Below the pieces are notes generated by a model. The model did not search any database and was not told where the DNA came from. It was given only the letters and a program-made list of their open reading frames with translations. Shown here in pieces: positions 20,228 through 63,094 of a stretch of 64,000 bases of DNA; position 1 is the stretch's first letter, and every line of letters begins with the position of its first letter. The translations under genes and the position numbers were made by a program. The DNA lies in contig NZ_QUAC01000137.1 of the NCBI RefSeq assembly GCF_003389455.1, positions 31,131 through 95,130 on the forward strand, read 5' to 3'. The DNA is from Streptomyces inhibens. Its GTDB lineage: Bacteria > Actinomycetota > Actinomycetes > Streptomycetales > Streptomycetaceae.

Positions 20228-21307
20228 TTACAACGCCTTGCGAAACTCCTCCGCGGCCTGCAGGAACAGATCCATCGCCCGACTCTCACCGATCGTCACC
20301 CGCACACCCTCGCCGGCGAACGGCCGCACGACCACCCCGGCCCGCTCACAAGCCGCCGCGAAGTCGGTCGTACGGTCCCCCAGCCGCAGCCAGACGAAGT
20401 TGGCCTGCGACTCGGGGACCGTCCAGCCCTGCCCGAGCAGACCGTCGACCACCCGCGCGCGCTCGGCCACCAGCGCATCGACCCGCTCCAGCAGCGCCGC
20501 CTCGCTGCGCAGCGACGCCACCGCCGCTTCCTGAGCGAGCTGGCTCACGCCGAAGGGCACCGCCGTCTTGCGCAGCGCGGCGGCCACCGGCTCATGCGCC
20601 ACCGCGAAGCCGACCCGCAGCCCCGCCAGGCCGTACGCCTTGGAGAAGGTGCGCAGCACGCACACATTGGGGCGGTCGCGGTAGAGGTCGATACCGTCCG
20701 GCACCTCGGGATCGCGGATGAACTCGCGGTACGCCTCGTCCAGCACCACCAGCACATCGCTCGGCACCCGGTCCAGGAAGGACTCCAGCTCCGCACGGCG
20801 TACGACGGTGCCGGTGGGGTTGTTGGGGTTGCAGACAAAGATCAACCGGGTACGTTCGGTGACCGCGGCGAGCATCGCATCCAGGTCGTGCACCTCACCG
20901 GAGGTCAGCGGGACCTGCACCGAGGTGGCGCCCGAGACCTGGGTGACGATCGGGTACGCCTCGAACGACCGCCAGGCGTAGATCACTTCATCGCCGGGCC
21001 CGGCCGTCGACTGGATCAGCTGCTGGGCCACACCCACCGATCCGGTGCCTGTCGCCAGATGCTCCACCGGCACCGAGAACCGCTCGGACAGCTCCGCCAT
21101 CAGGCCGGTGCAGGCCATGTCCGGGTAGCGGTTGAAGGAGCCGGCGGCGGTCACCGCGCTCTCCAGGACGCCCGGCAGCGGCGGATAGGGGTTCTCATTG
21201 GAGGACAGCTTGAATGCGACCGGGCCGTCGCTCGCCGCCGGCCGGCCAGGCTTGTAGGTGGGGATGCCGTCCAGCGCAGCACGTAGCTTCGGGGTCTTCT
21301 CGCTCAC
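20228..21307 (-). CDS. hisC: Histidinol-phosphate/aromatic aminotransferase (HisC/Pat family)
   Basis: A 359-residue class I/II PLP aminotransferase: [11 protein letters not shown] (substrate phosphate region), [17 protein letters not shown] and the PLP lysine in [15 protein letters not shown]. No histidine biosynthesis genes adjoin it. A stand-alone second copy of this type may act as a phenylalanine or aromatic aminotransferase rather than in histidine synthesis. The GTG at 21307 is chosen because AGGAGGACCTGCG precedes it; upstream sequence in frame is not protein-like. Confidence 0.87.
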
Positions 21308-33872: not shown

Positions 33873-33886
33873 GTTCCACGTGAAAC
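33873..33886. other. parS: parS-like site with one mismatch
   Basis: GTTCCACGTGAAAC differs from parS at position 4. It lies 19 bp from a perfect copy in the same intergenic region. Confidence 0.75.
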
Positions 33887-33891
33887 CGAAT

Positions 33892-33905
33892 GTTTCACGT
33901 GAAAC
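33892..33905. other. parS: parS (ParB-binding site)
   Basis: A perfect GTTTCACGTGAAAC between the lyase gene and the LysR gene. Confidence 0.92.
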
Positions 33906-43306: not shown

Positions 43307-44053
43307 TCAGGCCTGTCGCGCACGCCCCCGTGACCGGTGCGCCTTCTGGCGGCAGGCACCACCGCAGTAGCGCGCGGGACGACCCGTGCGCGCCGTCGCG
43401 ATCGCCGTACCGCACACTTCACACCGAGTTTCGTTATGATTCCGCGCCTCGGACGGGAGTTTCGTTACGGATGGAGCCGCACGCAGCGCATCGCACATCA
43501 GCGCGGTCATCCGCCCCTGCACACCGTCCTGAGAACCGGCCCCCGCTCTGGCCTGCTCCATGGAAAGACAGCCCACCAGCAGCGCCCTGAGGTCCGTTAT
43601 CCCGACGTCCTTCCGTACGGCGCCCGCCTTTTGGGCCCTGGTGAGCAATACCTCCAGGGAGTCGTCGAAGTCCTGCCCGACCCCCGGTGACGGCTCGAAA
43701 CGTCCCGTGCCGGCCGCCTCCAGCGCGTCACACAACGCCTTGTTCCGTGACGCGAGCCGTACCACCGACGACAGGAAGCGGAAGAAGACCCCGCCGGGGT
43801 CCTCGACATCGACCAAGTCCCTTGCGGTGTCGGTGAAAAGCTCGATCCGGTCCACGATGGTCGCCCTGAACAGGGCTTCTTTGGAAGGGAAGTGGCGGTA
43901 GACCGTCCCTGCCCCGACCCCCGCACGGCGCGCGATCTCCCCGAGCGGAACCCCCAACCCCTGTTCCTCAAAGGCGGATCGAGCCGCTTGGAGCACCAGC
44001 GCCCTGTTGCGCCGGGCATCCGCACGGGAAGGCGTGACTCCACGATTCGTCAT
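43307..44053 (-). CDS. TetR-family regulator with C-terminal zinc-knuckle-like tail
   Basis: A 248-residue protein. The TetR helix-turn-helix (LGEIARRAGVGAGTVYRHFPSKEALF) lies at residues 37-62, followed by the usual ligand domain to about 195. The last 40 residues hold CEVCGTAIATARTGRPARYC and GGACRQKAHR, a CxxC...CxxxC-H pattern that should bind zinc. The same GRPARYC-ACRQ-AHR knuckle occurs alone or fused in other actinobacterial proteins. It diverges from the broken NmrA-like gene, and may once have controlled it. Confidence 0.88.
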   Translation of the reverse strand: MTNRGVTPSRADARRNRALVLQAARSAFEEQGLGVPLGEIARRAGVGAGTVYRHFPSKEALFRATIVDRIELFTDTARDLVDVEDPGGVFFRFLSSVVRLASRNKALCDALEAAGTGRFEPSPGVGQDFDDSLEVLLTRAQKAGAVRKDVGITDLRALLVGCLSMEQARAGAGSQDGVQGRMTALMCDALRAAPSVTKLPSEARNHNETRCEVCGTAIATARTGRPARYCGGACRQKAHRSRGRARQA

Positions 44054-44146
44054 CGCCGGGCCTCCTGAGAAACGGTTGACATCCGGGTCGGGCGCTCCGC
44101 AATTTCAAACGGGTCGCTCATTCCGATTCTACGGGAGGGTTCCAGC

Positions 44147-44779
44147 GTGATCGTTAAGGGCCTGACAGTCGCGGTGACCGGCGCAACGGGTCAGCAAGGC
44201 GGTGCGGTGGCCCACTGATTACTGGCGGACGGCTGGACCGTACGGGCGCTCACCCGCGATCCCGCGAGCCCCATGGCCCGCGCCTTGGCCGCCGCCGGCG
44301 CAGACGTACGGACCGTCGACATGGCCGACCCCGCCACGCTGAAGCCCGCGATCGACGGCGTATACGGCGTCTTCAGCGTCCAGCCTGCCTCCGGGGCCCC
44401 CGACTCGCCACCGGACTACTCCTGGCAGGACGAGATCGCCGCCGGCCGCAATGTCGCCGACGCGGCCGCCGACGCTGGCGTACGGCACCTCGTCTACGCC
44501 TCCGTCGACAACGCCCAACTCCGGTCCGGCATACGGATCTTGGATAACAAGTGGGTCATCGAGGAGCACATCCGCGGGCTCGGCCCTCGCCCAGCCGGAC
44601 CGCTTCGCAGCCCAGGCCTTGGAGCTGGCGGGCGACGCCCTCACTCCCCCGCAGATCGCCGACGCCACGAGCCGCGCCACCGGGCGTACGGTCCCCTACG
44701 TCCGGATGCCGATGGAGACGCTGCGGGAGCTGAGCGCGGGCTGGAGCGCGAGGGCGCGCGGCAGCTGGAGCAGCTGCTC
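44147..44779 (+). pseudogene. NmrA-like NAD(P)-binding protein, broken by several lesions
   Basis: From the GTG at 44147 (GGGAGG ahead) the frame reads a Rossmann start, LTVAVTGATGQQGGAVAH, then stops at TGA 44216-44218, in frame with the continuing LLADGWTVRALTRDP. Family features go on to VRHLVYASVDN and KWVIEEHIRGL. There about 110 residues of the usual middle are missing and the frame changes; PDRFAAQALELAGDALTPPQIAD resumes in another frame, and the end runs into a parS site. Nonsense codon, internal deletion and frameshift together mean a dead gene. Confidence 0.85.
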
Positions 44780-44785
44780 GATGGT

Positions 44786-44799
44786 GTTTCACGTGAAAC
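44786..44799. other. parS: parS, first of a cluster of three
   Basis: A perfect GTTTCACGTGAAAC inside a 26-bp perfect palindrome (44780-44805). Confidence 0.93.
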
Positions 44800-44840
44800 A
44801 CCATCATCGCGTCACGGACAACAGCCCAGCGCGGGTTGGC

Positions 44841-44854
44841 GTTTCACGTGAAAC
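44841..44854. other. parS: parS, second of a cluster of three
   Basis: A perfect GTTTCACGTGAAAC, 55 bp from the first. Confidence 0.93.
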
Positions 44855-44883
44855 AACGCTGCTTCACACACACGTGGGGTCGT

Positions 44884-44897
44884 GTTTCACGTGAAAC
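44884..44897. other. parS: parS, third of a cluster of three
   Basis: A perfect GTTTCACGTGAAAC at the centre of a 34-bp perfect palindrome (44874-44907) that could also act as a transcription terminator for the convergent flanking genes. Confidence 0.93.
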
Positions 44898-44938
44898 ACG
44901 ACCCCACAGCCACAACTTCATCGAGGCAATGGCACGCC

Positions 44939-46084
44939 TTAGCGCGCGACCACCTCGTCCCACGCCGCGCCCGCCGCCAGAGCCGCGCCCTCGGCATCCA
45001 CCGACACCCCCAGCGCACGCAGCGCGCCCGCCAGCGCCACCAACGAGGCCGTGACCACCGCCCGGTCGGCCGCGCGGCCATAGTGGTTCACCCGGATCAT
45101 CTCCTTGGCCAGCGCGCCCGCCACAGCCTGCACCGGCACCGTCGCGTCCACCGCGAGCGCAGCGGTCACGACCTCCCGGGCGTCCACTCCCTCAGGGGCA
45201 CGGAGGGTGGTCGCCACCGGCGCCGCGTCCTCGTCACGCACGACGTACGGAGCGAGCCCACCCAGCGCCTGCACACCGGCCCGGGTCGCCACGGCCGCCG
45301 CCCGGTGCCGGGTGATGACCGCATCCAGCCCCTCGGCGTCGATACGGTCCGCTGCCTGCTCCAGGGCGAGCATCTCCAGCTGCGCCGGAGCGTGCGGCAG
45401 CGCGGTGCGTCCACCGTCGATCCAGCGCTCCTTCCAGTCCAGCAACGAGAGATACGAGCGCCGCGGAGCCTGCTCGTTGGCGGCGATCCGCTCCCACGCA
45501 CGGGCGCTGACCGACGCCACGGACACCCCGGCGGGCCCGGCCATCGCCTTCTGGCCGCCGATGACACACAGGTCCACGCCCCACTCATCGGTCAGCAGCG
45601 GCTCTGCGCCCACCGATGCGACCGCGTCCAGCATCAGCAGCGCGCCGTGCTCGCGCACCACCGCGCCGATTTCCGCGACGGGGTTGGTGTTGCCGGTGGC
45701 CGCCTCGGCATGCACCAGGCTCACAAAGTCGATCTCGGGGTGCTCCTGCAGCGCGTCCGCGACCTGCTGCGGGTCGACCGCGCCCGTGAACGGCGCGGTG
45801 AGGGTGACCACCTCGGCGCCGCAGGAGCGCAGCCAGCCGCCGAAGGTCTCACCGTACGGGCCGGTGATGATGTTGAGCGCGGTGCTGCCGGGCCGTACTG
45901 CCGAACGGATGCAGGCCTCCAGGGGCAGCAGCGCCTCGCCCTGCATCGCCACGACATCGCAGCGGGTGCGCATCAGCGCGGCGACCTTGTCCTCGATCCG
46001 CGCGAAGTGAGCCGCGGTGAGCGGCGGCAGGTCGAGCAGTTCCGGAGCGGCGGAGTTCGCGGTCGGGTCAGACACGGCAGTCAC
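44939..46084 (-). CDS. Alanine-glyoxylate-type class V aminotransferase
   Basis: A 381-residue PLP enzyme of the small-subunit class V family (serine-glyoxylate/alanine-glyoxylate aminotransferase, and relatives acting on phosphonates). Diagnostic parts are GEALLPLEACIRSAVRPG, VHAEAATGNTNP, DAVASVGAEPL and the PLP lysine in CVIGGQKAMAGPAG. The substrate is uncertain. The GTG at 46084 lies 4-5 bases after GGAAGG. The neighbouring genes do not reveal a pathway. Confidence 0.87.
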   Translation of the reverse strand: MTAVSDPTANSAAPELLDLPPLTAAHFARIEDKVAALMRTRCDVVAMQGEALLPLEACIRSAVRPGSTALNIITGPYGETFGGWLRSCGAEVVTLTAPFTGAVDPQQVADALQEHPEIDFVSLVHAEAATGNTNPVAEIGAVVREHGALLMLDAVASVGAEPLLTDEWGVDLCVIGGQKAMAGPAGVSVASVSARAWERIAANEQAPRRSYLSLLDWKERWIDGGRTALPHAPAQLEMLALEQAADRIDAEGLDAVITRHRAAAVATRAGVQALGGLAPYVVRDEDAAPVATTLRAPEGVDAREVVTAALAVDATVPVQAVAGALAKEMIRVNHYGRAADRAVVTASLVALAGALRALGVSVDAEGAALAAGAAWDEVVAR

Positions 46085-46198
46085 AGGGCCTTCCAGCGGT
46101 AGCGAGCCGCCTCGGCGCGGCTCCTGACGTCTGGCTCGACTGTACGTCCGAGGCCCGCGCCCTCGTCGTACGGGCCTCGCGCCTCCGCCGTACCGGCC

Positions 46199-47707
46199 TC
46201 ACACCCGCCAACCCTCCGGATCCACCCCGCCGGGCACCGGATCCGACGGCTCGTACGGCCCGCGGGTGAACACGAAGGTGCCCAGATCCAGATGGCTGAC
46301 CGAACCGTCCCGGTCCCGCACCACCCTCAGCGTCTCGCCCGCGTAATAGCCGTCCAGCCCTGTCCAGGTGCCGTCCTCCTCGGCCCGGAAGCGGGAGGCT
46401 CGCCCCGCCGCGGACAGCGGTGCGAGCTCCAGCCCGCGCTCGGCCCGCAGCCGCAACGTGTGCGGGTTCGCGCCCCAGTACCAGGGGCCGGTGAGCGCCA
46501 GCAGCTCCTGATCCAGCGGTCCGGGCATCGGACGCCAGGGCTCGGGAATCCGCGGCTCGTGCTCGATCACGATCCCGGTGAGATCGGCGGCGATGGCCGG
46601 GACCGCCGGGCCCGAAGTGCAGTTGGCGAGCACGATCCCGGCGACGTCCTCCTCGACATCGGCCCACAGCGTCGCCAGGAACCCGGGCATCGAGCCGGTG
46701 TGCCCGACCAGCGTCCGCCCTTCCCACCGTACGAGCTGGAGCCCCAGCCCGTACCCCGCGTCCCATGCCCGCCCGCCCGGCGGCACCGCCGGCGTCCGCA
46801 TCTCGGCCAGCGTCGCCGCGCTCAGGACCCGCTCATCGCCCCGCAGCAGGAACGCCGCCCACCGGCCCAGGTCCTCAGCCGTCGACCACAACTGCCCTGC
46901 CGGGCCCATCAGTCCGGTGTCCTCGGACGGTTCGGGCAGCATGGCATCGGCCCACGGATGTACCGCCCAGCCGCCCGCGTGCGGCATCTCCGGCCGCAGC
47001 GCCGTACGTCGCATGCCCAGTGGTTCCAGCACCTCGCGCCGCAGCACCTCGCCCCACGGCGTACCGCCACGCAGCCGTTCGACCAGCGCGCCGAGCAGCG
47101 CATAACCGGTGTTGGAGTAGTGGTGCTGCCGCCCGACGGGGAGCCGCTGCGGCCGCTCACCGTACAGATCGGCCGGCTCGGGCCGCAGCTCGCCCGCGGT
47201 CCGTTCCCACCACGGCCCCCGGGGCTCGGCCGCCAGCCCTGAACTGTGCGAGAGCAGTTGAGCGATCGTCGCGTCGGGCACCGCAGTGCCCTCCAGATGC
47301 CTGCCGACCGGGTCGTCGAGTCCCAGCAGACCTTCGTCCCGCAGCCTCAGCACCTGCACGGCGACAAAGGTCTTGGTGATCGAACCGATCCGGTACTGCA
47401 CATCACCGTGCGGTACCTCCCCGTCCACCGAGCTCCGGGCGCCCGTCCACACCGCTCGGCCGTCGCGCACCACGACGCCCATCATCGAAGGCGCCCGCCC
47501 CTCGGCCTGTCCGACCGCCAGCCTCCGCAGCAACGCCCGCCGCGTCTGCGGCAGCAGCTCCGGGCACGCTTCAGGCGTGTCAGCCACCCGCGGCTCGGGT
47601 CCGTCCGGATCGAGGCGGACCGGATCGGGGCCGGCCGGATCGGGCTCACTCGCCCAGGGCTTGGCCGCCTCGGGCTCGTGGGACTCCGCGGACTGTGTGA
47701 TGGTCAT
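46199..47707 (-). CDS. Serine hydrolase, class C beta-lactamase/DD-peptidase family
   Basis: A 502-residue member of family S12. The nucleophile motif SITK is Ser109-Lys112, the second motif is YSN (in HHYSNTGYALL), and HTGSMPG matches the third (HxG) motif. A Pro/Asp-rich 50-residue head lacks a signal peptide, so the protein may be cytoplasmic, acting as an esterase or peptidase rather than an antibiotic-degrading enzyme. A beta-sheet C-terminal domain of about 130 residues follows. Confidence 0.9.
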   Translation of the reverse strand: MTITQSAESHEPEAAKPWASEPDPAGPDPVRLDPDGPEPRVADTPEACPELLPQTRRALLRRLAVGQAEGRAPSMMGVVVRDGRAVWTGARSSVDGEVPHGDVQYRIGSITKTFVAVQVLRLRDEGLLGLDDPVGRHLEGTAVPDATIAQLLSHSSGLAAEPRGPWWERTAGELRPEPADLYGERPQRLPVGRQHHYSNTGYALLGALVERLRGGTPWGEVLRREVLEPLGMRRTALRPEMPHAGGWAVHPWADAMLPEPSEDTGLMGPAGQLWSTAEDLGRWAAFLLRGDERVLSAATLAEMRTPAVPPGGRAWDAGYGLGLQLVRWEGRTLVGHTGSMPGFLATLWADVEEDVAGIVLANCTSGPAVPAIAADLTGIVIEHEPRIPEPWRPMPGPLDQELLALTGPWYWGANPHTLRLRAERGLELAPLSAAGRASRFRAEEDGTWTGLDGYYAGETLRVVRDRDGSVSHLDLGTFVFTRGPYEPSDPVPGGVDPEGWRV

Positions 47708-63059: not shown

Positions 63060-63073
63060 GTTTCACGTGAAAC
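63060..63073. other. parS: parS, first of a pair
   Basis: A perfect GTTTCACGTGAAAC adjoining the terminator hairpin. Confidence 0.92.
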
Positions 63074-63080
63074 GGTCAGC

Positions 63081-63094
63081 GTTTCACGTGAAAC
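63081..63094. other. parS: parS, second of a pair
   Basis: A perfect GTTTCACGTGAAAC, 21 bp (two helical turns) from the first. Confidence 0.92.

Follow-up and report, generated by a model that had tools for sequence, protein, structure and literature searches.

Three parS sites at the 3′ end of an aminotransferase gene

The 64,000-nucleotide stretch of Streptomyces inhibens DNA analyzed here (the window; contig C264, positions 31131-95130, of genome G000) carries three exact copies of the parS core GTTTCACGTGAAAC with a total span of 112 bp, as an earlier note had reported. Its observations that two of the copies lie in perfect inverted repeats, one of 26 bp (13-nt arms) and one of 34 bp (17-nt arms), and that the cluster sits between a dead gene and a convergent gene were also confirmed, an NmrA-like pseudogene being found on one side and a minus-strand aminotransferase gene on the other. 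In window coordinates, the features are the following:

44147-44785, plus strand: NmrA-like (NAD(P)-binding) pseudogene, with an in-frame TGA at 44216-44218 and a frameshift further on
44780-44805, no strand: perfect palindrome of 26 bp that encloses parS1 where the NmrA-like remnant ends; uncertain candidate for a second parS-hairpin
44786-44799, no strand: parS1, exact 14-mer (sequence match)
44841-44854, no strand: parS2, exact 14-mer without arms (sequence match)
44874-44907, minus (aminotransferase) strand: 34-bp perfect palindrome, putative parS-terminator with parS3 at its apex (dyad, RNA fold, orthologues, T-bias and covariation)
44884-44897, no strand: parS3, exact 14-mer at the hairpin apex (invariant across 30 aligned hairpins)
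44939-46084, minus strand: PLP-dependent class V aminotransferase, pyridoxamine–pyruvate transaminase-like (match below the curated cut-off)

The NmrA-like remnant has a GTG start codon at 44147. The gene is dead in the window, and only remnants are kept in S. kronopolitis, S. lydicus and S. sioyaensis, which are the closest named species as judged from the aminotransferase gene. The stop codon of the latter gene is separated by 31 bp from the 34-bp palindrome, which lies downstream on the sense strand of the gene. The dyad of parS2 does not extend beyond the core. A mobile or repeated element was rejected as an explanation, as the flanks of the three sites are unlike each other beyond the core, and the region 44000-46200 gave no Rfam matches to a known RNA family.

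Chromosomes of Streptomyces contain about 11-65 parS sites clustered near oriC (PMC8743542, PMC4852455). The genome analyzed here has 27 exact sites on 9 contigs and one ParB gene (C353:22225-22758, 213 bits), the contig of which also carries parS at 20743, 21029 and 22153. The contig of the window, which also contains the neighbourhood of the CCA tRNA nucleotidyltransferase and SCO3897-family genes, is oriC-proximal; the contigs are not joined to dnaA. As judged from sequence, the window sites display the features expected of chromosomal parS, at which ParB would bind: the 14-bp core, a ParB gene in the genome and clustering of multiple copies in the oriC region. Nine near-parS matches were found in the window versus 0.97 expected from shuffles. 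At 33873-33905, an exact parS and a one-mismatch copy (GTTCCACGTGAAAC) lie 5 bp apart. The density of the sites, from which the earlier note took the cluster to be a candidate strong ParB nucleation point, is not unique in the genome, since the same contig has three more parS in a tighter arrangement, within 74 bp (contig positions 101140-101213).

The 34-bp palindrome as a candidate terminator

On the aminotransferase strand, the RNA of the 34-bp palindrome forms a perfect 15-bp stem closed by a 4-nt ACGU loop, with a predicted folding energy of -30.3 kcal/mol for 50 nt (z -5.7). The stem is GC-rich and stable and the loop falls within 3-8 nt, as expected for an intrinsic terminator. Counting against a terminator, the window copy is followed by GTGTGTGT, with no clean U-tract, and a consensus terminator scan demanding 5 T in 8 nt did not call the hairpin. 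Among the aminotransferase orthologues, the 8 nt after the stem contained on average 4.1 T on the sense strand versus 1.3 on the antisense strand.

We have compared the 3′ flanks of 60 named orthologous loci. In nearly all of the ~30 that bear parS, the strongest 3′ hairpin was centred on one parS. In S. chattanoogensis, the top-scoring hairpin is built from two parS as arms, and a third parS caps a 12-bp stem that includes two G·U pairs. A plain companion parS at a spacing like that of parS2 was present in S. kronopolitis, S. sioyaensis, S. nigrescens, S. endophytica, NRRL S-337 and NBRC 110611. Most of the loci lacking parS have an ordinary GC hairpin at the same place, usually followed by a T-run (as in S. 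klenkii, S. hiroshimensis and S. abikoensis); as a point against the terminator reading, about six of these relatives, including S. albus and S. diacarni, had no clear terminator there.

Thirty hairpins from the orthologous loci could be aligned free of gaps. The parS core was unchanged in all of them, while the surrounding stem varied in sequence and stayed paired (98.3% of the stem cells paired versus 77.3% in shuffles). Both partners had changed in nine of the ten variable pairs. The covariation score was 0.518, versus 0.125 in shuffles that ignore the relatedness of the species and at most 0.15 when the partners were slid. In the gene tree of the aminotransferase, a modestly supported branch (68/61) has all the parS-bearing species on the same side, so that the stem changes would have accumulated inside one lineage with pairing retained. 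The tree allows a single gain of parS kept in 30 species. The earlier note had proposed to align the palindrome flanks across relatives as a check on their conservation; what proved conserved was the pairing of the arms, not their sequence.

Further signals distinguished the two strands. At one-sided long-armed sites from the genus-wide survey described below, the 8 nt after the stem held 2.2 T on the sense strand versus 0.7 on the antisense strand. Where a single non-Watson-Crick pair bridged the stem at one-sided loci, it was G·U in the sense RNA at five distinct sites and A·C at none, the strand of G·U being counted at one-sided loci only because it is mixed at convergent ones. The hairpin of genome G036 folded with -28.3 kcal/mol in the sense and -24.7 kcal/mol in the antisense orientation. 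These strand-specific signals are small in number, all go in the same direction and point to pairing in RNA. Accepting cruciforms as geometrically possible, as the earlier note had suggested, the G·U-only exceptions at one-sided loci favour RNA pairing over DNA extrusion.

A second locus with covarying parS stems

Between the CCA tRNA nucleotidyltransferase and SCO3897-family genes, parS was present in 31 of 31 genomes, and in 30 of these at least one site had a stem reaching 5 bp or more (G·U allowed on one strand), often two in a row. The covariation scores at the two positions were 0.311 versus 0.108 and 0.330 versus 0.117. Stem covariation around parS is repeated at this locus. Counting against a terminator reading, the strand of the G·U pairs did not track the nearest gene at this convergent locus and, consequently, the hairpins are not assignable to either gene of the pair.

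Long-armed parS sites across Streptomyces

We have surveyed 196 distinct parS sites from 15 Streptomyces genomes, taking as chance level the result of shuffling the flanks between sites. Arms of 5-18 bp were found at 47 of the 196 sites versus 2.9 expected, and 14 of the 15 genomes had at least one such site; the longest perfect dyads in the genus reached 50 bp (18-bp arms). By chance, arms of at least 6 bp would occur at about 0.8% of sites. The genome of the window had arms of at least 5 bp at 7 of its 27 sites versus 0.4 expected, and the lengths were discontinuous: at 20 sites the dyad ended with the core or 1 bp past it, at seven it extended by 5-10 bp, and no intermediate lengths occurred. 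In other genera of the class, long arms were seen at 4 of 71 parS sites. A genome from another class of the phylum contains long-armed sites as well (G113:C34:74495, 74540 and 83578; arms of 5-8 bp as read by eye), possibly an independent case.

Position relative to genes also differed between the two kinds of site. Genes were called on both sides of 46 long-armed sites, and 41 of these had a gene 3′ end no more than 150 bp away, compared with 71 of the 118 short-armed ones (p = 0.0003; genes were called with a simple codon-usage caller and single contexts may be wrong), and none of the 46 was in a divergent gap. Of 184 parS sites, 71 were in convergent gaps, an enrichment of about 20-fold over the share of bases that such gaps make up. 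Taken together, about a quarter of Streptomyces parS appear to form gene-end hairpins with a most likely role in stopping transcription.

The parS hairpins between pyrE and fba count against this reading, as their T-run comes before the stem and not after it; long-armed parS recurs in this region in several Streptomyces (L079:9027, L091:9027 and L101:9027). With masking matched, an apparent lack of any other hairpin in parS gaps was based on four single-site gaps, and we give it no weight.

Two parS may also serve as the two arms of one hairpin: outer arms of at least 6 bp were found in 6 of 80 pairs versus 0.6 expected, few cases in all. Paired sites whose outer flanks add 4-7 bp were seen at L118:3769-3801, L106:9005-9040, L099:12740-12777, L062:3238-3273 and, in the window, at 63060-63094. 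By eye, a parS apparently lies between two tandem tRNA genes, in the order tRNA 3′ part, parS, tRNA 5′ part, and is conserved in several Streptomyces (G009:C1:4689856, G003:C30:576 and G013:C1:4270355). Intragenic parS with a codon context conserved across several Streptomyces were noted at L044:9027, L054:8483 and L089:9027.

Alternative explanations for the palindromes

The long arms could be an extended recognition or loading sequence that gives stronger ParB nucleation, the RNA hairpin being incidental. Such a role would agree with the exact parS core in all hairpins and with the T..A pair beside the core, which fits the known 16-bp consensus TGTTNCACGTGAAACA (PMC7022226). We consider it improbable, given that the arms are conserved in pairing only, that they are almost confined to gene 3′ ends, that the T-bias and the G·U-only exceptions are strand-specific, and that a hairpin is kept at the locus in most relatives without parS. 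The same strand-specific evidence disfavours selection of the palindromes as DNA cruciforms, for instance as supercoiling-responsive elements at ParB/TopA sites: with no sense strand to distinguish, G·U and A·C should be equally frequent at one-sided loci, where G·U only was seen, albeit at few sites. Neither the 3′-end bias nor the T-tails are predicted by cruciforms and, despite the perfect dyads of up to 50 bp and a DNA strand fold of -18.4 kcal/mol, we regard this explanation as extremely improbable. A mutational origin would leave the arms functionless. Template switching is a known type of mutation at inverted repeats; it could perfect quasi-palindromes at parS and would be in line with arms that vary from site to site. 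It predicts, however, long arms at any parS, including those within genes and in other actinomycetes, against the 4 of 71 found outside the genus and the nearly exclusive placement at gene 3′ ends. The T-bias and the two-sided changes retained over 30 species would also be left unexplained, which makes such an origin very improbable.

The 26-bp palindrome is a different matter. Its RNA fold is weaker (-17.8 kcal/mol, z -4.9), and neither parS1 nor the palindrome has a counterpart in the sister species examined. An ordinary parS could have been extended by chance while the pseudogene sequence around it decayed, to which we give slightly less than an even chance: this is in keeping with the 0.8% per site at which arms of at least 6 bp are expected, the lack of a counterpart and the lack of a T-run after it on either strand, set against its location where a former gene has its 3′ end, like the functional ones, and the six other long-armed sites of the genome. 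Less certain than the role of the 34-bp element, a second, lineage-specific parS-hairpin role is the other reading. The suggestion of the earlier note that the long arms may double as a terminator is therefore strongly supported for the 34-bp palindrome, by stem covariation, sense T-bias and the ordinary terminators of most parS-less relatives, and is a possibility for the 26-bp one, which is absent from the sister species examined.

A proposed dual-coded element

We propose that the 34-bp palindrome is, with high probability, dual-coded, acting as parS in DNA and as the intrinsic terminator hairpin of the aminotransferase gene in RNA. As DNA, it would be a chromosomal centromere site bound by ParB; as RNA, it would form the hairpin at which RNA polymerase stops after transcribing the convergent aminotransferase gene. 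The 4-nt loop and the 5 bp next to it (GUUUC-ACGU-GAAAC) would come from the parS core, and the base of the stem from GC-rich arms that are free to evolve. Because parS is itself a short hairpin, it may fit the apex of a terminator at no cost. The gene-end location, in turn, would spare the ParB/SMC loading site from read-through transcription.

If this interpretation is correct, a large share of Streptomyces centromere sites would be under two constraints, one on the DNA from ParB and one on the RNA from termination, and this double constraint would be a reason for the placement of parS and its enrichment in convergent gaps. Deletion of a parS may then cause read-through into the neighbouring gene and confound segregation phenotypes, and natural pairs would be available for asking whether transcription disturbs ParB loading. 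It is conceivable, but in our view unlikely, that parS-terminators constitute a working link between transcription and segregation, with ParB at the apex aiding RNA polymerase to stop or with termination shielding the ParB/SMC loading site. With such a link, termination near oriC would depend on ParB, and segregation would depend on terminator strength.

Comparison with known systems

How many parS sites Streptomyces has, where they lie and how they are biased towards oriC has already been described, as has ParB ChIP-seq (PMC7022226, PMC4852455, PMC8743542). We found no description, in the open-licence papers searched, of parS as a terminator, hairpin or stem-loop, or of its association with convergent genes. 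The window sites resemble the known Streptomyces parS/ParB-Spo0J sites in their exact core, many copies, oriC-proximal location and a ParB gene in the genome; unlike those described, a quarter of the sites surveyed here are hairpins with covarying arms of 5-18 bp at gene 3′ ends.

With Rho-independent terminators, among them actinobacterial ones whose hairpin lacks a clear U-tract, the 34-bp element shares the GC-rich stem, the 4-nt loop, a position tens of nucleotides past the stop codon and, in most orthologues, T-richness on the sense strand. Ordinary terminators are free to drift in both loop and stem; the 34-bp element differs from them in having at its apex a protein-binding site of 14 bp that is fixed and conserved as DNA. 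The two-sided position, and the gap of the CCA-transferase and SCO3897 genes often holding two hairpins, recall the bidirectional terminators of convergent gene pairs, from which the hairpins described here are set apart by the parS that each of them contains.
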